From contig SCKI01000006.1 of the NCBI GenBank assembly GCA_004124295.1, positions 62,001-126,000 of the forward strand: 64,000 nt of DNA. Direction: 5' to 3'. Positions 4,377 through 64,000 of the stretch are shown piece by piece. The position numbers were made by a program, and so were the translations under genes. The notes under the pieces are model-generated. The model was not told where the DNA came from. It worked only from the letters and a program-made list of their open reading frames with translations, and searched no databases. The stretch is from Fidelibacterota bacterium (GTDB lineage Bacteria; Fidelibacterota; Marinisomatia; SCGC-AAA003-L08; TS1B11). Positions within the stretch are counted from its first letter, which is position 1, and every line of letters starts with the position of its first letter.

Positions 4377-4471
4377 CCTGCCAACTGCCACTGCTACTGC
4401 CAACTGATTTCCAGCCCCCAGCCCCTTCGACCCTTCGGCTCCGCTCAGGGCCGGCGGCCTCAGGGTGACGG
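4377..4471. repeat. Spacer of degenerate word repeats
   Basis: Contains ccaactgccactgctactgc words and a palindromic phrase (cttcggctccgctcagggc ... ctcagggtgacgg) between the MITE-like copy and the selenoprotein gene. No gene is seen. Confidence 0.5.
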
Positions 4472-4813
4472 CTAATAGGTCAGCGCTTTGTCCGCGGACT
4501 GGACCAGGCTGGCCAGCAGCTCCATGTCGCCGCGCTCGATGCCGTCTGTGGTCCTTCCCGACACCCCCCGGGCGTCGCCGCAGGTGCCTCAGAAATAGAC
4601 TTTCGCGCCCCGCTTCAGCAGTCCCTTGAGCATTCTGGCGATGTTGTAGGTACCGTCGGGTGTCTGCTGGTCATCCAGAGCGCAGAGGACGCCGTCCCCC
4701 ACCATGAAGATGGACAGCGGTTCCTTTTTCTTGGCCAGCGCCAATGCCAGCCGGAGACCGTTGTAGGCGAACTCGGTACCGTAAGGGGCGTAATTGAGGA
4801 TAAAGGTCGTTAT
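4472..4813 (-). CDS. DsrE-like selenoprotein (in-frame UGA read as Sec)
   Basis: One frame, interrupted only by a TGA at 4591-4589, reads TTFILNYAPYGTEFAYNGLR, IFMVGDGVLCA, TYNIARMLKGLLKRGAKVYF, then U-GTCGDARGV, and ends SADKALTY. This is the DsrE/DsrF-like sulfur-carrier or thiol redox fold. Family members have CGTC at this place, so the UGA replaces the first cysteine (U75-G-T-C). A GC-rich hairpin suited to be a bacterial SECIS starts 11 nt after the UGA. No ATG opens the frame: the apparent start is ATA at 4813, so translation may begin at another codon or the 5' end may be damaged. Expected length is about 113 residues. Confidence 0.75.
4559..4577 (-). promoter_or_regulatory. Predicted SECIS hairpin of the DsrE-like gene
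   Basis: CGACGCCC-GGG-GGGTGTCG forms an 8-bp stem (one G-U) with a GGG loop. The loop lies 20-22 nt after the UGA codon, within the bacterial SECIS window, and has the expected Gs at the apex. Confidence 0.7.
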
Positions 4814-4920
4814 GGGGGGAATATAGCCGCCGGGGAGCGGTGTCGGTAGAGGTAAGTCCAGCCTCAGGCCATAGCCCCAGTCGGCTTCTACAAAGTCGCA
4901 CCTGCCGACTAGGGACCTCT

Positions 4921-5040
4921 TGACTCAGGACCCGTCTACGTCCGTCGAGAGCCGGACTACGCCGGGCAAGCTGCCACTGTGGACTAAGGACCCGTCTACG
5001 TCCGTCGAAAGCCGGACTACGCCGGGCAAGCTCTGGACTA
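4921..5040. repeat. Two tandem 60-bp repeats
   Basis: Two successive 60-bp units each contain ggacccgtctacgtccgtcg and ccggactacgccgggcaagc, differing at a few positions. A shortened inverted copy lies at about 10446-10481. The units are partly palindromic. Confidence 0.85.
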
Positions 5041-5072
5041 ATAACTAAGCACTAAAGACTAACGACTACGGA
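5035..5072. repeat. Degenerate ggactaa/taactaa words
   Basis: The run ctggactaataactaagcac, then aaagactaacgactacggac, ends at the 3' end of the esterase gene. It is one of several word-like spacer repeat families in the window. Confidence 0.6.
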
Positions 5073-6083
5073 CTAATGACTATGGGCCAGCGCCCCGGCC
5101 ACCGCCTGCAAACTTTCCCGGTAGCGGTGGTTGATGCCCCGATGGCCGCCGTCGTGTTCCTCGTAATGGTGCGCGATGCCCAGCGCCACCAGCCGCTCCA
5201 CGAAAATGCGCGCCCCCAAATGGAGGCCGTACTCGTCCCGGGTCCCGGCGTCGAGCCACAGGAGGGTCAATGACCCCAGCGCGGCCGCGTGGGCCTGATC
5301 CTCAAGCATGCGGATGGGATCGTGGGCCAGCCAGCGCTCCCACACGGCCTCCCGGATGCGGCCGGAGGGGAGCTCAAAGGGCAGTTCGATTTTCGTGCCG
5401 TCGGGCGAGTAGGCCGCCGCCATGGCGATGATGTTCAGGGCCGGGATCAACGGTCCCTTGTCCCGGGCGGACGAGAACTGCTCCAGGAAAGGGGTCACCC
5501 CGCCGGCCTCATTGAGGGCGTTGACGGCGGCCGGGAAATCCTGCAGATAGCCGTAGGTAAAGTACATATCGCCGCTGTGGCTGGCGGCCGCGCAGAACAG
5601 CTCGGGATGCTTCATCGCCAGGGTCAGGGCGCCATATCCGCCGGACGATTTGCCAAGCACGCCCCGGTGGTCCCCGGTGGGGAGCGTTTTGAGCTGCCCG
5701 TCGATGAAGGGGATGATCTCAACCGTGAGGTAGTCTGCATAGGGACCGGTGGCCGTCGAGTTGAGGTACTGGCTGCCCCCGAGGCGCGTAAAGCAGTCGG
5801 GCATGACCACGATCACGGGCGGAGCCTCGCCGGCAGTGATGAGGCCGTCCATCTGCTCCGGGAGGTTTTCGTCCCACACGCTGAAGCCAGCCATGTTGGG
5901 TCCCGTACCGGTGAAGCCGGCCAGGACGTAGATGACCGGGTAGCGGTCGGCCCCCTGTTCGTAGCCCGGCGGCAGATAGACCGGAAACCGGCGCCGGTGG
6001 GGATCGCCGAGGGGATTGTCGCGGAGCAGGTCGCTGTCGTGCTCCAGCCAGATCAGGGTGCCGTTTAGGGGTCGGTTGTACAG
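5073..6083 (-). CDS. Esterase of the enterochelin esterase-like alpha/beta-hydrolase family, 5' end damaged
   Basis: The continuous frame reads GTLIWLEHDSDLLRDNPLGD, RYPVIYVLAGFTGTGPN, VIVVMPDCFTRLGGSQYLNS, then the nucleophile elbow LGKSSGGYGAL and a late HDGGHRG histidine. This is the serine/histidine arrangement of putative esterases. The only in-frame ATG is internal (5894). A good ATG at 6088 is in another frame that stops at once after MPCTTDP. Adding one C to the CCCC run near 6067-6070 would join MPCTTDP to LNGTLIW. The start therefore looks frameshifted, by mutation or sequencing error; a CTG at 6083 is the alternative used here. The substrate is unknown. Confidence 0.75.
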   Translation of the reverse strand: MYNRPLNGTLIWLEHDSDLLRDNPLGDPHRRRFPVYLPPGYEQGADRYPVIYVLAGFTGTGPNMAGFSVWDENLPEQMDGLITAGEAPPVIVVMPDCFTRLGGSQYLNSTATGPYADYLTVEIIPFIDGQLKTLPTGDHRGVLGKSSGGYGALTLAMKHPELFCAAASHSGDMYFTYGYLQDFPAAVNALNEAGGVTPFLEQFSSARDKGPLIPALNIIAMAAAYSPDGTKIELPFELPSGRIREAVWERWLAHDPIRMLEDQAHAAALGSLTLLWLDAGTRDEYGLHLGARIFVERLVALGIAHHYEEHDGGHRGINHRYRESLQAVAGALAHSH

Positions 6084-55646: not shown

Positions 55647-55718
55647 GGCCCGTTCGTCTAGTGGTGAGGACTCCAGGTTTTCAACCTGGCAACAGGAGTT
55701 CGATTCTCCTACGGGCTA
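55647..55718 (+). tRNA. tRNA-Glu (anticodon TTC)
   Basis: Cloverleaf: acceptor GGCCCGT pairs with ACGGGCT, D arm GTCTAGTGGTGAGGAC, anticodon stem CCAGG-TTTTCAA-CCTGG with anticodon TTC, T arm AGGAGTTCGATTCTCCT. CCA is not encoded. It borders the AT-rich island that begins just downstream and is a possible integration site. Confidence 0.95.
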
Positions 55719-55989
55719 CTTGAGGAAGTTGCAGTCGGCAGTGGCAGTTGGCAAGGGGGGAGTAGCCAGCATCCAATATCCACCATCCACCATCCAGGTG
55801 ACCAAACTCCTACCAAGATCGACTAAGATTGACACTATTTGCCGGATACGGCGTGGATACGGGATTGAAAAAGTCGGGGTGGGGACGTTTATCCCAAAGG
55901 CATAGCTGAAGGAAGCCCCCCGATACGTTGACTTCCCGACCAGAAAAGCGTCCGCCTGACATATCCTTTGGTGCGAAAATATCATGGGG
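55719..55989. other. Spacer between tRNA-Glu and the Avs-like gene
   Basis: It holds gcagtcggcagtggcagttg (55732-55751) and atccaccatccaccatccag (55780-55799) word repeats, then about 190 bp with no recognised gene or attachment-site copy of the tRNA. Confidence 0.55.
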
Positions 55990-58900
55990 CTACCTGCCAG
56001 AATCAGGCTGTTCATAGAATTTTCTGGAACCCAAGGGATTCCCGTCCTTGAGCAGATAGACTTCTGAATATTCAACCCATCTACTAGGTGAAATCGGCAT
56101 ATCGATATACTCTTCTTTTTCACCCATTACTGTCCAAATGAGCGAATAGCCATTATTTGACAAATATTGGTCGAACATATCTTTTCTAACTAGTAGTCCC
56201 TGATAGTGGTGTCCCTTCAAAGCCGGATCAAATACGATACAAAGACCGTTCTTATCCTCCCATTGGCTATTGTCAGGATGCCACCTTAACCCCATCCCCT
56301 CAATAATCTCCGGATTAGGAAGCATACAAGACACCCCCTCTCCAACAGAATTATCATAATCGTTGGCAGCATTGTGATAGTTTTCTACCGTAATTCGCAC
56401 CCTGGTTGGTAGTGTATGGTAGTTCGTCTCGTCGGTCCAGCCTTTGTGCCCATAGTAGGGCGTGTTTCGGGCTGCATAGGAATTCGCCCAAGGGTATTCG
56501 CCGAGATACATTTGGCCTAGGTTGCCAGATTCGGGCATCCACCTCCCATAGATATTCTTACTCTTGGCCCACTGAAATAGATCGTCACTATTTTCCTCTG
56601 CCACGAGATAACTCCGAAGCTGATACCATATTCGTCGGTCCGGTTTCTGCTTTCTCGCCTCATGTGGAAGATGAGGTTCTACCCACTCAAAATTTGCCTC
56701 AAGAGCATAATAATCCGCTCCATCAACAGGGTCAGATACTTTGAGGAGGGGCGCAGTATCAGGAAAATCATCTTTTCTAAGCCGCCAGTCTTGTGTCATA
56801 GGATTCGAGCTCCAATCGTATCCTACAGGAGCAAGCCATTCATCGGTGTGGCCTTCTCCATAGAGACGTGGTGATGTGGAAACAAGCGTATGCGATGGAT
56901 CAATATCTCGCACATTGAGTCCCCAAGGACCGTCATATGTGATTGGTCCAGAATCGCCGTACTCGGGCATCATGTAAAAATTATCGCTGAGTCGTGCGAT
57001 TGCCTCATGGTAGCCAACCCATTGGTATTTCTTTCCGATTCTCTCAATTCTAGCACTCTCTCCTCGATGGATCGAATAACCTGAATCAAATTCACCAAAA
57101 CGCTCGTTCGTATATCCCATTTCAATTACTCGCCGAAAAATAAAGCGTGATACCAAATCGCTACTCATCCGTCTATCATCTTGAGATGGCAGGGCTTCGA
57201 AGTAGCGCACCACAATATCCTCATATGCTTGGCGTTTCTTTGTACGTAGAGATTTCAGGAATTTTTCCTCTACAGCTGATATTTCCTCAACAGATGGAGT
57301 GTCAGAAAGATCATCCTCCTCGTTCGTGTCAGGGAGAAATCGGATTCCAGTAAAACGAACCTGTTGAAATTCGCTCCATAATAGTTCCTGCCGCTTTGTT
57401 AGACTAGTGATAAACTTGTCATACTTTTCTCTCAAACTCGGTTTCCATTCCTCAGACAGAGGGGTTGATGACCAAGGCTGACGGGATCCTACAACGTATT
57501 TTCCAAAATCACCGATCCACCCAAGAAGCGAGTTATACACCTTGTATAATCCTCTTTCCGTTCTGGGTGTATTGTCTTTCAATTCTACGAGTTTTTTTAA
57601 ATCATCCGCGCTTGGTATATCATTGGGCCATTCCGAACTATAGGGGGGGCGAATCTTCTTTTTTGACAGGCGAAGCTTAAGCCCGCGATGAAGGGCGACC
57701 TCGATTACCCCTCTTGCATAATCTCTAAGCAGGATGTGCGGAGGTGGACTGCCATTCTTAAAAACAGTGTTATAAACGTCCTGGGCCAGCACCTTGATAT
57801 TCTCATTATCGTTGCTTCGAAGGGAGCAGCCGTACGCTACTGCATAGACCCGTTCGGCCACATAGGGATCATTTACTTCTCTGAAGTCCTTCAGAACTTC
57901 ACGCAGCACGGCGATCCTAGGGGTTAAAAGATTGACAAGGGCCTTGGTGGTCCGATCTCGCAAGGCGCGGTTGGTCGAAGTGAGAAACCAACAGAGTGTA
58001 ACAGCAAGTAATCGTATTGTTTCGTTGCTGACTTCGGATTTGTCCATAGGTAATAATGCCCAGTCGACTATACGACTGATCGGATACCCCTCGTAGTAGT
58101 TTTCCTGAAGAAAAATTGTCCACCATGCATCACGCTCAGCAATCCCAAACTTGCTCAGATGTTGATGCAACAGAGTCGCATTAAAAGGGTGATCGGGATT
58201 TGAGGAAATGGTAAGTAGCGCATTTACGAATTCATCGTGAGTATCTCTATGATTAATGACAACGCTATTAACATAACTACGCGCATTCTCAAAATCGAGA
58301 TTAGCGGGGTTTCTCCAAATGAGACTAGCTACGAAAGCTGATCTTACCGCGCCAAATGAACGAGCATGAGGAGCAACTTGAAAAAATTCCTGTTCCACCC
58401 GTTCAGGTAGTTGAATAGAGAGGGCTTCAATGAGCCCTCTTTTCCAAGAAGACCTGGCTTCATCGGGGAATCGGTTTCCTATTTTTCCGTTCGGCAGGAA
58501 TGCTGCTTGAGGATTCGCCTCATCCAAATAGGTATCAAGGAGATATTCAGCAACTAGATGATCCGAAAATCTTTCATAAGTAAATCGTACGATATGTTTG
58601 ATTGTCGTCTTGTCCCACTGATAAGCATCCTCAATAATGACCCCTTGATCGACCATGTGAAAATATAAAGACTCTTGGTAATTCGTTCCTGGGTGCAGCG
58701 AATCAAGAATTGACTTTGCCGTGTCCACATCGATCCAAGATACGTCTTCTTCTGCTAGTTTTTTTGCTAACCCCAAGGATGCTTTCCATACTAGCTGGTT
58801 CCGCTCGTCATACCCCAGAGCAGGTGCCAGAATCTTATCAACGGAGGCTATGTAGTATTTTAGAAGTTGATGTATACCATTCACGCCAGATGGAATCTCC

Positions 58901-60528
58901 CTAGCGCCACTATTTCTAATAGCTTGGCAGAAAGTGTACAGGAAAAGAGGATTAGTGAAATCCGGGAGAAGGGTGGGTATTCGTGGCGCATTCAAGCCGA
59001 AATATTCAAAGTACTTGTTTATGGCTTCCTGTGGTACTTCCGAAAACCCAGTATGGATTATTTCGACAAGTACTGTCTCGTCCAACCCTTCAGGAAGGAT
59101 AGTTGTTCGGTAGGTTGACCGAAAACTTACGACTATGCCAACCCAAGGGAATCTTTCTAGGGCAGTCAGCATTCCACTCAGGTGGTTCTTCCACATAGAC
59201 TTATCTTGGCTCTCGTTTAAAGCATCGATCATTAGTAGCACTCGATGCCCTTTGGCTTCACCTAGGGCATCCAATGCCCCAAGAAATTCATCTCTTTCCC
59301 CCCGTACGTGGAGGGTTGTTAAAATCTGAGCCCATGGATCGCCGCTATTAAAATGATTACCATGTAGTAATATTGTTGGTAGGCCAATCTCTGCCCTCTT
59401 TTCGGCTACATCGCAGAGCAAATGTGTTTTCCCCTGGCCAGCATCCCCAGTGATAAGCAGCGCCCCTGTGTTCGCGGATTCGGCTTCCGCCGACTCAAGG
59501 AACCTAATCAATGTCTGTGTGGCTCCAGCGATCCGGTATAATGCCGAACGCTGGCTACGGTACTTATCTAAATTGTGTTGCTGGTCGCTGGGGGTATCTT
59601 CTCCCTTTAATTTTCTTCTTTCCTGGTTCTCAAGATCGCGGAGAGAATCCACATATTTTTCAGCGGTCTCTATTAATTCATAACCGAACTGAATAATTCC
59701 TTCAAATAGTAATTGGTCTGGTCCTCGAGATAAATAGACGAGGTTGGCGACGGCAGCGCCCATTGTTTGCTTCATTTTAAACAGTTCGTCAACAATGCCC
59801 TTAAGATCAGGATCATCTTTTGTGAACGTGCCAATTCGAAACGCATCCTCAAATTCTACCAATTGCTCGCTTAATCTGTGTTGAAAGGCCTCCGTCCGGC
59901 CAACTCCATCAAATACATCCGCAATGGGTAAATCCACATTGAGGAGTGGTAAATATCGTTTCCCCGCATCGCTGATAGCCTCGTCCAATCGTCCCTTTAA
60001 CCAATCAGTTGTGAAGTATTCCTGATTAAAAAAGAAAAAGACCCGCCCCCGGTGACGGTCCTCAGTTAGTCGTGTCGTTAGATCGTGATTGCCCCAATAC
60101 ACGAACTCGACGGACATGCCTTTTGCTGCTGCCCATCCCTCCCATCTCGCAACACGATTATTCCATTTATCCATCATGGACTGCCGTCCTTTAATATGGG
60201 CATCGGGTCGGCCAATAGGCAGACAGACAAAATACTTAACTAATTTTGGCCGCTTCTCAAGGGCTGTTTTAACAGAATGATCAATTTGATCCCACTGACC
60301 ATTTGTCAGGGATTGTAGAAAGTACTTTGCTTGCCAGCCCCACTCGTTACCATTGGAAAGAGTCCAATAGCATTCAACGCCCGCATCGGGGTTGCCCACA
60401 CGAGTGAATTCAGCTCCAACTTGCGGAGATTCAGCCCTGGCGAGTTGGCAACAGAGCTCTTCGAATGCGTCGGACTGCATGCCGTTAAGGGTGCGTATTG
60501 TTGACCAGTTAAAGACGGTGCTAGGCAT
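55990..60528 (-). CDS. Avs-like STAND NTPase with N-terminal PD-(D/E)xK nuclease domain
   Basis: The single 1512-residue protein has an Mrr-like nuclease domain (about 1-200): helix FEELCCQLA, then NPDAGVECYW (D48, E52) and WGWQAK (Q66-x-K68). A linker follows (RGRVFFFFNQEYFTTDWLKG). The STAND NTPase carries Walker A ALLITGDAGQGKTHLLCDVA (about 362) and Walker B HRVLLMIDALNE (about 432). The C-terminal 900 residues are helical repeat-like and not otherwise recognised, as in Avs proteins, which sense phage proteins there and then cut DNA. Base composition is clearly AT-richer than the rest of the window, indicating transfer. Standing alone, without a separate nuclease gene, fits single-gene Avs systems. 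Confidence 0.87.
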   Translation of the reverse strand: MPSTVFNWSTIRTLNGMQSDAFEELCCQLARAESPQVGAEFTRVGNPDAGVECYWTLSNGNEWGWQAKYFLQSLTNGQWDQIDHSVKTALEKRPKLVKYFVCLPIGRPDAHIKGRQSMMDKWNNRVARWEGWAAAKGMSVEFVYWGNHDLTTRLTEDRHRGRVFFFFNQEYFTTDWLKGRLDEAISDAGKRYLPLLNVDLPIADVFDGVGRTEAFQHRLSEQLVEFEDAFRIGTFTKDDPDLKGIVDELFKMKQTMGAAVANLVYLSRGPDQLLFEGIIQFGYELIETAEKYVDSLRDLENQERRKLKGEDTPSDQQHNLDKYRSQRSALYRIAGATQTLIRFLESAEAESANTGALLITGDAGQGKTHLLCDVAEKRAEIGLPTILLHGNHFNSGDPWAQILTTLHVRGERDEFLGALDALGEAKGHRVLLMIDALNESQDKSMWKNHLSGMLTALERFPWVGIVVSFRSTYRTTILPEGLDETVLVEIIHTGFSEVPQEAINKYFEYFGLNAPRIPTLLPDFTNPLFLYTFCQAIRNSGAREIPSGVNGIHQLLKYYIASVDKILAPALGYDERNQLVWKASLGLAKKLAEEDVSWIDVDTAKSILDSLHPGTNYQESLYFHMVDQGVIIEDAYQWDKTTIKHIVRFTYERFSDHLVAEYLLDTYLDEANPQAAFLPNGKIGNRFPDEARSSWKRGLIEALSIQLPERVEQEFFQVAPHARSFGAVRSAFVASLIWRNPANLDFENARSYVNSVVINHRDTHDEFVNALLTISSNPDHPFNATLLHQHLSKFGIAERDAWWTIFLQENYYEGYPISRIVDWALLPMDKSEVSNETIRLLAVTLCWFLTSTNRALRDRTTKALVNLLTPRIAVLREVLKDFREVNDPYVAERVYAVAYGCSLRSNDNENIKVLAQDVYNTVFKNGSPPPHILLRDYARGVIEVALHRGLKLRLSKKKIRPPYSSEWPNDIPSADDLKKLVELKDNTPRTERGLYKVYNSLLGWIGDFGKYVVGSRQPWSSTPLSEEWKPSLREKYDKFITSLTKRQELLWSEFQQVRFTGIRFLPDTNEEDDLSDTPSVEEISAVEEKFLKSLRTKKRQAYEDIVVRYFEALPSQDDRRMSSDLVSRFIFRRVIEMGYTNERFGEFDSGYSIHRGESARIERIGKKYQWVGYHEAIARLSDNFYMMPEYGDSGPITYDGPWGLNVRDIDPSHTLVSTSPRLYGEGHTDEWLAPVGYDWSSNPMTQDWRLRKDDFPDTAPLLKVSDPVDGADYYALEANFEWVEPHLPHEARKQKPDRRIWYQLRSYLVAEENSDDLFQWAKSKNIYGRWMPESGNLGQMYLGEYPWANSYAARNTPYYGHKGWTDETNYHTLPTRVRITVENYHNAANDYDNSVGEGVSCMLPNPEIIEGMGLRWHPDNSQWEDKNGLCIVFDPALKGHHYQGLLVRKDMFDQYLSNNGYSLIWTVMGEKEEYIDMPISPSRWVEYSEVYLLKDGNPLGSRKFYEQPDSGR

Positions 60529-60953: not shown

Positions 60954-61427
60954 ATGAGACAATCCAGTTTACTGCTCATCCTGGCAGCTATCTTAGCAAG
61001 CGGCTGCGCCTACATCCTTAGCACCGACAGCCAGGATATATCCATCTCATCAAGTCCTGCCGGGGCGCAGGTGGTGATTAAGACCACGGGTGGCATCGAG
61101 GTATTCAGCGGCACGACGCCGGCACAGGCTCATTTGAAAAGGAAGAATGAGTACATCGTCGATGTTACCCTGGATGGCCACGCCCCAAAGCAAATCCACT
61201 TGTCACACTCCATCAATCCGGCGACGTTCTGGAATCTGCTGATAGGCGGAATTCCCGGCTGGATCATTGATGGCGTCACCGGGGCCATCTGGAAGCTTGA
61301 ACCGGAGACGATCACCATCACCCTGCAAACGGCCAGCATTGATGGTGAGGACCACCAGGTGCTTGTGTTCTCCTGGCTGGATAGCAATGGGGAGCCAGTG
61401 CATCAGGCGGTGGATGTATCTGATTAG
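60954..61427 (+). CDS. PEGA-like lipoprotein
   Basis: The 157-residue protein has a lipobox ILASGC (Cys18) and then SISSSPAGAQVVIKTTGGIE, a PEGA-like beta segment, and YIVDVTLDGHAPKQIHL. A hydrophobic helix-like FWNLLIGGIPGWIIDGVTGA is unusual after a lipid anchor and could contact the membrane. The C-terminus SWLDSNGEPVHQAVDVSD is closely copied downstream as a gene fragment at about 62398. A strong terminator follows. Function unknown. Confidence 0.82.
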   Translation: MRQSSLLLILAAILASGCAYILSTDSQDISISSSPAGAQVVIKTTGGIEVFSGTTPAQAHLKRKNEYIVDVTLDGHAPKQIHLSHSINPATFWNLLIGGIPGWIIDGVTGAIWKLEPETITITLQTASIDGEDHQVLVFSWLDSNGEPVHQAVDVSD

Positions 61428-61883
61428 GGTACATGGCCTTCCGAGGCGGTGGACTTACTTGATATACTCGAAAAGGAAGGGCTGCATTTATTTGCAGCCC
61501 TTTTTGTTTCAGATTAATGTCACGCCCTCCCGCCACCTATTTTTGTCAATGGAGTGACGCTGTTCTGAAAATACACTGCTATGTTCGCTTGGCGGGATAA
61601 ACTATCTTGCAACCCATGAGAGTACTCGTTGAATCAAGGAGGATATCAACCCGATTGGGACAAAGCTCAGAATATAATCGTGGTTATCTGGTGAGTTTCA
61701 TGAGCCGGGAAAAGAGCAAGCGAAGGACGTTTCAACTGAGACATCAGTTAAGCCTTGGAAACACGAATTATGTCACTTAGTTTTAGATAAATGGAGATCA
61801 CATTACTTTGGCGACGTACAGTTCGATGCTATTGATGAGTACATTTTAACGGCTACCAAAATGTTTCTACTATAGGTGGTATC
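61428..61883 (+). other. Spacer with terminator and an unsupported small ORF
   Basis: Apart from the terminator at 61479-61505 this stretch shows only a 53-codon frame (ATG at 61617, MRVLVESRRISTRLGQ) with no family match and poor start context. I see no recognised gene. Confidence 0.45.
61479..61505 (+). terminator. Rho-independent terminator of the PEGA-like lipoprotein gene
   Basis: GGGCTGCA-TTTATT-TGCAGCCC followed by TTTTT. A nearly identical copy is at 62545-62571. Confidence 0.93.
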
Positions 61884-62366
61884 ATGAAGTTCACACGAAA
61901 CTACGTGTCGAGCCTAATAATGGTGGCTCTATTCACTGGCTGCCTCACTCCGCCGGAAGAATCATCATATGAAATAGATGATCTACTGGCCGCGCCCGAA
62001 GTTGTATCGATCGGTGGGCAGAACTATGCTCTAGAGACATTTATGTGGCGGGATTTTATGCCAATAACTCCGCCTGGTGGGCAACCGCTTATTACGATCA
62101 TTTGGGTGACTGAGGTGGATTCGCTATCAATACCCCAAGAATTGAATGCTACGACCTTATACGTGATCAATGATGACGAGGTTTGGGAAACACCCTTCTC
62201 TGATGAAGATAGCCCGCCAACTCCAGAGCACAAATTAGAAAAAGTTGCCCGTGATGGCCCGAAGTGGGGACCCGATATCCTCGTGACAGTGGTTGTCCAG
62301 ATTAAATTTGACGGTAGCACATATCTGCTGAAAGCGTCAGACCAGTATATTGGGAGGACAGATTAG
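61884..62366 (+). CDS. Lipoprotein of unknown function
   Basis: The 160-residue product has a signal and lipobox (MVALFTGCLTPP, Cys20), then EIDDLLAAPEVVSIGGQNYA, RDFMPITPPGG and DILVTVVVQIKFDGSTYLLK. No family can be named. It follows the PEGA-like lipoprotein gene in the same AT-richer segment and is flanked by a copy of that gene's 3' end and terminator. It may thus have been inserted into a duplication of the neighbour. Confidence 0.75.
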   Translation: MKFTRNYVSSLIMVALFTGCLTPPEESSYEIDDLLAAPEVVSIGGQNYALETFMWRDFMPITPPGGQPLITIIWVTEVDSLSIPQELNATTLYVINDDEVWETPFSDEDSPPTPEHKLEKVARDGPKWGPDILVTVVVQIKFDGSTYLLKASDQYIGRTD

Positions 62367-62397: not shown

Positions 62398-62494
62398 GGC
62401 CAGCATTGATGGAGGGGAGCACCAGCTTCTAGTGTTTTCCTGGCTGGATGCGCAAGGTTATCCGATACATCAGGCGGTGGATATTTCTGATTAG
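62398..62494 (+). pseudogene. Copied 3' end of the PEGA-like lipoprotein gene
   Basis: The sequence encodes SIDGGEHQLLVFSWLDAQGY and PIHQAVDISD stop, matching SIDGEDHQVLVFSWLDSNGE to the end at 61427 at about 75% identity. The 5' part is absent. The copied unit includes the terminator. Confidence 0.85.
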
Positions 62495-62544
62495 CGTCCA
62501 GGGCCTTGCGAGGCGTTGGACTATTTGGATCGTATTGATAGGAA

Positions 62545-62571
62545 GGGCTGCATTCATTTGCAGCCCTTTTT
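62545..62571 (+). terminator. Second copy of the lipoprotein terminator
   Basis: GGGCTGCA-ttcatt-TGCAGCCC followed by TTTTT, paralogous to 61479-61505. Confidence 0.92.
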
Positions 62572-62579
62572 GATGCAGA

Positions 62580-63287
62580 TTATTGTCACCCTTTTTTGTC
62601 ATCATTTTTCTTTTGTAAACAAACTGAAAACGGCCTTCTATTTCGTTCACTTTAATGTTTGTTTTCTACCCCTATTTTCATTCTACCCTTATAAGATGTG
62701 TGGGATTTGTCGTTTGATTCTTTTGGATCAGATTCTTCTTGTATTTCTCATTACGTGCAGTTACCTTACCTCACATTGCGCTTCTTTGCAGCCAATGTTG
62801 TGCTTGCTAAGAAGCACATATGCTAAACAAAAAAAGGTGGCCAGATTGATGGAATAATTGATTCAGGATCAAAATAGCACCGCTTCCCTCATTGGCGCTC
62901 AGATATTTCCCCTATACAATTTATTCCCACGCACAGTAAAAACATGAATATCCATGATATTATTCCAGATAATAAATAAATTGATTAAGAAGAGCAAAAA
63001 CTATAAGATATTGATAATACGGGAGTTACATAATCGCAATAAACGGGAATTTAATTCGGGAATTAATACTAATAAGTCAAAAATACTGAGTTTTTAATTA
63101 CTTATTAAGTGGAAATAATTCAATTTAAATACTAAATAAAGTAGCAGGCGAAACGGATAAACAATAAATAGTCGAGGGGAAATACTAAAATGTTGAGGGA
63201 GAAAGTATAAATGGGAAAAGAAAGAACAATTAAAGTCAAGCGAGCAGAAATACAAGTAATAATAATGGGTTTTAGAGGAGAATCGTT
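62580..63287. other. AT-rich non-coding region
   Basis: The region is strongly AT-rich (especially 62870-63280) with no supported ORF. AATTTAATTCGGG (63048-63060) is repeated exactly at 63348-63360, inside the next gene. It could hold the promoter and operator of the HTH gene or be a remnant of a mobile element end. Confidence 0.5.
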
Positions 63288-63608
63288 GTGGCAAATCAAT
63301 TACCAGATAAATTAAGCGCCATTTTAAATAGACTGGATAATATCGAAAATTTAATTCGGGGTGAATTTAACTCGCCCTGGATGACAGCTAAAGAAGCAGC
63401 CCGCTTCCTCAGATGTTCGGTTACACAGGTTAATCGACTGGCCAGCGCGGGTTTAATACCCTACAGCAGGCAGGACTCCACCGCCCCGAAGTCTGCCCGG
63501 CTATTTAATCGAAGGGATTTAACAGCCTACCTGGTCACGGGGCGCAATCCGGTGAAAAAACCTTTGTCTCAGGCAGAAAGGCGCATGGTGGAGGATTTAT
63601 TGAAGTGA
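63288..63608 (+). CDS. Excisionase-like HTH DNA-binding protein
   Basis: The start is GTG 63288 after a gaggag site. The 106-residue product has an HTH_17-type MerR/excisionase fold: SPWMTAKEAARFLRCSVTQV, NRLASAGLIPYSRQ and RLFNRRDLTAYLV. A leading coiled-coil-like part (DKLSAILNRLDNIENLI) precedes it. Such proteins act as recombination directionality factors or as transcription regulators in mobile islands. Its AT-rich surroundings fit the island interpretation. No integrase is in the window, but the record ends soon after. Confidence 0.87.
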   Translation: MANQLPDKLSAILNRLDNIENLIRGEFNSPWMTAKEAARFLRCSVTQVNRLASAGLIPYSRQDSTAPKSARLFNRRDLTAYLVTGRNPVKKPLSQAERRMVEDLLK

Positions 63609-63613
63609 GGGCG

Positions 63614-63880
63614 TCAAGTAGAGCGATAAATGTCTTTGCGGTGGCCGATGCGGATCACCAGGATGAACAGTTTATCCCTGTGCACCTCGTAAATGACCCG
63701 GTAGTCGCCAACCCGGAGGCGGTAATAGTCGGAGCCTGCAAGTTTGCGGACTCCCTTGGGGAAAGGGTTCTTGGCAAGCCGCCGGACAGCCCTAATGATC
63801 CGCCACTTGATGGCCTGGGGAAGCTTGTCGCCTTGCCGCTGGGCGTGGGCGGAAAATTCGATCCCGAAGGTCCGGGACAC
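63614..63880 (-). CDS. RelE/ParE-type toxin
   Basis: The GTG start at 63880 lies just after the antitoxin stop. The 88-residue protein has FSAHAQRQGDKLPQAIKWRI and KLAGSDYYRLRVGDYRVIYE, then VIRIGHRKDIYR. This is the RelE fold (basic surface, R-x-x-x-Y-R-V-I-Y motif). RelE toxins cut mRNA on the ribosome, while ParE types block gyrase; sequence marks favour RelE. It is transcribed with the antitoxin gene, which runs off the window. Confidence 0.92.
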   Translation of the reverse strand: MSRTFGIEFSAHAQRQGDKLPQAIKWRIIRAVRRLAKNPFPKGVRKLAGSDYYRLRVGDYRVIYEVHRDKLFILVIRIGHRKDIYRST

Positions 63881-63883
63881 CCG

Positions 63884-64000
63884 CTAGCCGATGCCCCAAG
63901 CCTTGGCCACCTCATCCAGTGGAATGGTCGGTTCCCCCGCTTCGATATTCTTTTTCACCGCATCGGCCAGCTTGATGTCGAGCTGATCGGCCAGGCTCTC
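63884..64000 (-). CDS. Antitoxin of the RelE system (partial, runs off window end)
   Basis: The open frame of 39 codons, entering from the window edge, reads ESLADQLDIKLADAVKKNIE, then PTIPLDEVAKAWGIG stop. It resembles the C-terminal half of short antitoxins with an acidic, helical toxin-binding segment. The N-terminal DNA-binding part is outside the window. It directly precedes the toxin gene with no overlap, in the classic antitoxin-toxin order. Confidence 0.75.
   Translation of the reverse strand, partial: ESLADQLDIKLADAVKKNIEAGEPTIPLDEVAKAWGIG

Follow-up and report, generated by a model that had tools for sequence, protein, structure and literature searches.

Work on Avs1–4 is said to have originated with Gao et al. 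in 2022. PMC12931631 describes their nuclease effectors as cutting phage and host genomes upon sensing terminase, portal or Ksap1. For Avs2, PMC12724215 gives activation of an Escherichia coli protein as an ATP-dependent trimerisation, and reports that terminase is bound by a Klebsiella protein, which appeared to bind Ksap1 as well. Here we compare these systems with a gene found in a 64,000-nucleotide stretch of contig SCKI01000006.1 (assembly GCA_004124295.1) from a Fidelibacterota bacterium; this whole stretch is referred to as the window, and positions are numbered within it. The gene, avs2 (55990..60528, minus strand), very probably encodes an Avs2 anti-phage protein that is the cargo of a 10.6-kb integrative element at the 3′ end of tRNA-Glu and that would act as set out below.

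Family and domain order of the protein

As in the original prediction, avs2 is a single gene with an uninterrupted open reading frame (ORF). It occurs once in its genome and encodes a 1512-amino-acid (aa) AVAST type 2 protein in which a Mrr-like PD-(D/E)xK nuclease (approximately residues 1–168) is followed by a linker, a STAND NTPase (Walker A near residues 361–369, acidic motif near 432–439) and a C-terminal sensor (approximately residues 545–1512). Judged by its sequence, the protein is Avs2, a known anti-phage family, and not merely Avs-like: it passes the curated NCBIfam Avs2 equivalog model NF041813 (1306.2 bits, cut-off 1000, residues 185–1497), the best PADLOC Avs2 model (PDLC02164) matches it end to end (1596 bits, residues 6–1508), and the nearest solved structure by sequence is Avs2 9o4e (residues 172–1503, E 9.4e-221). 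The earlier label “Avs-like” was therefore right about the kinship and imprecise about the family. Linker, NTPase and sensor are matched throughout by 9o4e, as they are by both models, but the alignment with 9o4e begins only at residue 172, the N-terminus of that protein being of another type. The protein does not belong to Avs4 (NF041815), for which it scores 21.4 bits against a cut-off of 1500 and matches with its N-terminus only. Avs3 families are absent from the listed PADLOC and NCBIfam matches, and the Avs3 chain is ~2000 residues long; the resemblance of the sensor fold to Avs3 (Z 14.1, below) does not amount to membership. The protein is thus an Avs2 that is ordinary in family and domain order and divergent in sequence.

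The half of the protein that would sense the trigger had been called unusual and largely unrecognised, which does not hold. It seemed so because Pfam yields just a NACHT match (E 1.6e-5) slightly below its cut-off, with weaker ATPase matches besides. A sensor profile (residues 545–1512, 49 proteins) matches 9o4e residues 528–1483 over its whole length (E 0). The predicted structure of the same region (predicted local distance difference test [pLDDT] 88.6, predicted template modelling score 0.88; the underlying alignment took 48 of the 80 listed sensor relatives) was superposed through model residues 217–958 on residues 1532–2082 of terminase-bound Avs3 (8dgc), with a Z of 14.1 and a root-mean-square deviation (rmsd) of 6.5 over 457 aligned residues. 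The Foldseek and VIA-align matches listed for this model do not include Avs2 9o4e, despite the match in sequence. Together, the profile match to 9o4e and the fold match to 8dgc place the sensor within the known Avs2 type and relate its predicted fold to that of a known terminase sensor.

The STAND NTPase is present as predicted, with a Walker A motif (GDAGQGKTH) and an acidic motif (LLMIDALNE) in which G361, G364, G366, K367, D435 and E439 are invariant across nine aligned proteins. The assignment of a Mrr-like nuclease to the N-terminus was likewise borne out, by fold and by conserved columns. Residues 15–99 match the N-terminus of Avs4 (NF041815, E 3e-5), and a model predicted on 58 sequences (pLDDT 89.6; 57 of the 65 listed N-terminal relatives entered the structure alignment) fits Avs4 (8dgf) over model residues 4–168 with a Z of 14.0 and an rmsd of 2.8 for 143 aligned residues. 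Restriction enzymes rank next over the same part (Z ~9), and Foldseek alone gave E 2.2e-3. This nuclease is common to the two proteins, and nothing beyond the N-terminus is shared. Conservation was assessed in a set of 100 Avs2 proteins, biased toward the query: the best 80 of at least 368 relatives on genome contigs, 11 from viral contigs, eight from plasmids or a second genome of the phylum (G219), and our own. In the 77 of these that bear the nuclease, the columns likely to form the active site are conserved as E23 (77/77), D48 (75/77), E52 (77/77), Q66 (77/77) and K68 (76/77), all kept in our protein; the pattern D-x-G-x-E ... Q-x-K resembles the one in Mrr.

The integrative element at tRNA-Glu

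A mobile defence island had been proposed from the contrast in composition, a tRNA-Glu at the left border and an excisionase-like gene and toxin system to the right. All of these are present. The island exists and reaches past the end of the window, with antitoxin, methyltransferase, integrase and attR extending to ~66400. Positions beyond 64000 are window-equivalent, that is, window numbering carried along the same contig, which ends at 67204. The tRNA-Glu (anticodon ttc; 55647..55719, plus strand; ARAGORN, Rfam RF00005) contains the start of attL (55678..55752), a 75-nt direct repeat that runs past the end of the tRNA and is 97% identical (E 4.5e-30) to attR at window-equivalent 66326–66400 (L002:13326–13400) on the same contig. 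Some of the repeat outside the tRNA is similar to a short sequence scattered through these genomes; the 42 nt that lie within the tRNA are independent of that. Between the repeats lie, from left to right, Avs2, two lipoprotein-like ORFs, an excisionase-like HTH_17 protein (63288..63608, plus strand; phrog_2907 excisionase, E 1.1e-6), a ParE/RelE-type toxin (63614..63880, minus strand; phrog_1213, E 3.7e-21), a Phd/YefM antitoxin cut by the window end at 64000 (63884..window-equivalent 64168, minus strand; PF02604), an N6/N4 DNA methyltransferase (window-equivalent 64224–65135, plus strand; PF01555) and a tyrosine integrase (window-equivalent 65175–66239, plus strand; PF00589 Phage_integrase, E 7.1e-13) that ends 86 bases before attR. 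An att repeat within the 3′ portion of a tRNA, an integrase beside one end and a small excisionase-like gene are features of tRNA-targeting integrative elements; this one carries Avs2, a toxin–antitoxin (TA) pair and a methyltransferase. No conjugation or capsid genes were recognised among the element ORFs scanned.

The GC content of the element is 0.480, against 0.608 on both sides (window 1–55646 on the left, only 804 bases on the right). Within it, Avs2 (0.46) is lower than the integrase (0.571) and the TA pair (0.58), and therefore the cargo differs from the backbone too. At third codon positions, GC is 0.437 for avs2 and 0.827 for an acetoacetyl-CoA-synthetase-like gene to the left.

In a sister species of the genus (G001), one contig carries the same site in order: after the left-flank genes come tRNA-Glu and an insert of ~2.9 kb, and these are followed by a further copy of att and then by the homologous right flank. 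This insert is 89.7% identical to our TA region over 923 columns, compared with 71–74% for the flanks; at the protein level the antitoxins share 96.7% and the toxins 87.5%, compared with 74–76% for three flank proteins. It retains a match to methyltransferase residues 1–64 and a fragment of the excisionase-like gene, and neither an integrase match nor Avs2 was found in it. Its cargo is a 460-aa ORF (L044:5692–7074, minus strand, contig C10 of G001) with no PADLOC, NCBIfam or PHROGs match at the limits used and only one Pfam match, below threshold. The insert is a decayed relative of our element with different cargo at the same tRNA. The best evidence of movement is that the DNA of the element is more similar between the two genomes than the surrounding chromosome is. 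The comparison shows a carrier partly retained while its cargo changes.

Integrases 55–64% identical to ours occur on a second contig of the same genome (C16), on contig C17 of G001, twice in genome G004 and in G005. Ahead of the integrase, both C16 and G001 C17 carry an excisionase-like gene and a methyltransferase, and no Avs2; neither att-like direct repeats nor a tRNA was found around these two copies. A DnaG-like primase adjoins the C16 copy, and HsdR-like and PLD-type genes, which may lie outside that element, stand further to the left. We tentatively propose, at somewhat less than an even chance, that the genus has a family of small elements that swap anti-phage cargo on a shared backbone of excisionase-like protein, methyltransferase and tyrosine integrase, sometimes with a TA pair or a DnaG-like primase: Avs2 here, the 460-aa protein at the same tRNA in G001 and, possibly, genes of restriction type close to the C16 copy. 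That the elements exchange defence cargo is a reasonable hypothesis; the cargo is seen to change at tRNA-Glu only, where the other cargo is the 460-aa protein without family.

Proposed mode of action and its alternatives

By analogy with the described family members, the C-terminal sensor would bind a conserved protein that the phage makes as it infects, most probably the large terminase subunit, upon which the STAND NTPase would bind ATP and oligomerise. Oligomerisation would activate the N-terminal Mrr-like nuclease, and cutting of phage and host DNA would abort the infection. The element itself would move by means of its tyrosine integrase and excisionase-like protein, perhaps stabilised by the TA pair.

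That avs2 is instead an ordinary chromosomal gene of the lineage, lying in an AT-rich stretch with no mobile element, is extremely improbable: little speaks for it beyond the fact that composition alone would allow it, and it has to contend with the att repeats and integrase, with the different cargo at the same site in G001, and with the 99 of 100 relatives that lack a match. The methyltransferase, being on the same element, could also be thought a partner of Avs2, shielding the DNA of host or element against the Mrr-like nuclease in a two-component system, and Mrr-like nucleases can depend on DNA methylation. We consider this very unlikely. The excisionase–methyltransferase–integrase cassette recurs without Avs2 in C16 and G001 C17, Avs2 being present once in our genome and absent from G001, and for this reason the methyltransferase looks like backbone; in addition, PMC12724215 describes Avs2 as a single-protein system.

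Several points weigh against the interpretation of avs2 as the terminase-sensing cargo of a mobile element. On the side of the element, the contig stops 804 bases past attR, and no empty tRNA-Glu site was seen in the genus, the site in G001 holding another, decayed insert. On the side of the trigger, the protein has diverged far from its relatives (its core is at most ~39% identical to any relative collected, and its placement in a quick tree of 94 rows is weak), so that its trigger may differ, and by PMC12931631 and PMC12724215, Avs2 may not be limited to a single phage protein as its binding partner. Both considerations favour an alternative in which the sensor recognises some other conserved protein of the phage, either in place of terminase or in addition to it, in the manner of Klebsiella Avs2 and phage Ksap1. 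We regard this as unlikely, though with a real share of the probability, since the predicted sensor resembles terminase-bound Avs3 over 457 residues and its profile matches a solved Avs2 over the whole length, even if neither match by itself shows the trigger. Terminase as the trigger is supported by this likeness, which falls short of a demonstration. With its divergent Avs2 sensor, for which there is now a structural prediction, the protein helps to ask how far terminase recognition extends.

Distribution of Avs2 and minor features of the locus

Rather than occurring in all relatives with matching composition, the protein was matched in one of the 100 relatives searched, its own genome. Across the phylum, two of 245 genomes (ours and G219) exceed the Avs2 cut-off and six have any match at E 0.001. 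In this lineage poor in Avs2, the element gives an Avs2 gene whose carrier is complete and bounded. Elsewhere, 81 plasmid records matched, every one at <60% identity, as did two phage records, in part. A profile scan of genome contigs gave at least 368 relatives among 590 pattern matches, and viral contigs contributed 11 Avs2 loci. A scan of genome contigs with the single protein gave no relatives in seven pattern matches, a limit of the method, as the profile scan found many. Of 91 Avs2 loci, five have a related integrase nearby, which is a lower bound given a profile built from only four integrases. In the 100-protein set, seven sequences (L085, L087, L109, L136, L147, L153 and L155) have interrupted frames, of which a single piece was read, and L091 is incomplete at its start; the tree took the 94 with a core of >1000 aa.

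Within this set the Mrr-like N-terminus is the commonest type (77/100, in a sample biased toward the query). Among the other 23 are the helical type of N-terminus that L014 was the first to show, four proteins that lack nearly all of the N-terminus and one of trypsin-like appearance; several of the 23 are fragments of the kinds just listed. The Avs2 of G219 (L070:5685–9866) has almost no N-terminal effector and follows, after ~100 bases, an ORF that by eye is serine-hydrolase-like (4412–5584); it forms one clade with the short-N-terminus Avs2 of L094, L113 and L124. The trypsin-like-looking N-terminus, also judged by eye, belongs to the Avs2 at L112:6389–10981, directly behind an ORF that by eye looks like an MBL-fold hydrolase. 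Two cyanobacterial Avs2 (L090 and L093) have a different short N-terminus, each beside a similar-looking ORF of ~160 aa upstream.

Further observations concern the tRNA-Glu site. In the stretch fetched from each of five other members of the family, tRNA-Glu had no second att copy. One small contig (L066; G003 C109) carries a copy of the 3′ part of tRNA-Glu (88%) and a related integrase fragment, and is perhaps a remnant in a third species. The C-terminus of the 460-aa G001 ORF has, by eye, a GIEVK stretch like those of PD-(D/E)xK nucleases.

The remaining cargo of our element consists of two putative lipoprotein-like ORFs, one of 157 aa (60954..61427, plus strand; weak PEGA, phrog_6823) and one of 160 aa (61884..62366, plus strand; no family match). 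The two units end in copies of a stretch of ~194 bases that are 80% identical (61331–61523 and 62398–62589), which suggests a duplication behind them. Promoter-like sites (16 found, 14.5 expected) and terminator-like sites (10 found, 11.5 expected) in the element are at the level of shuffled sequence. Upstream of the Avs2 start, an inverted repeat (60716–60731/60827–60842) with 16-nt arms that are 94% complementary could be regulatory.

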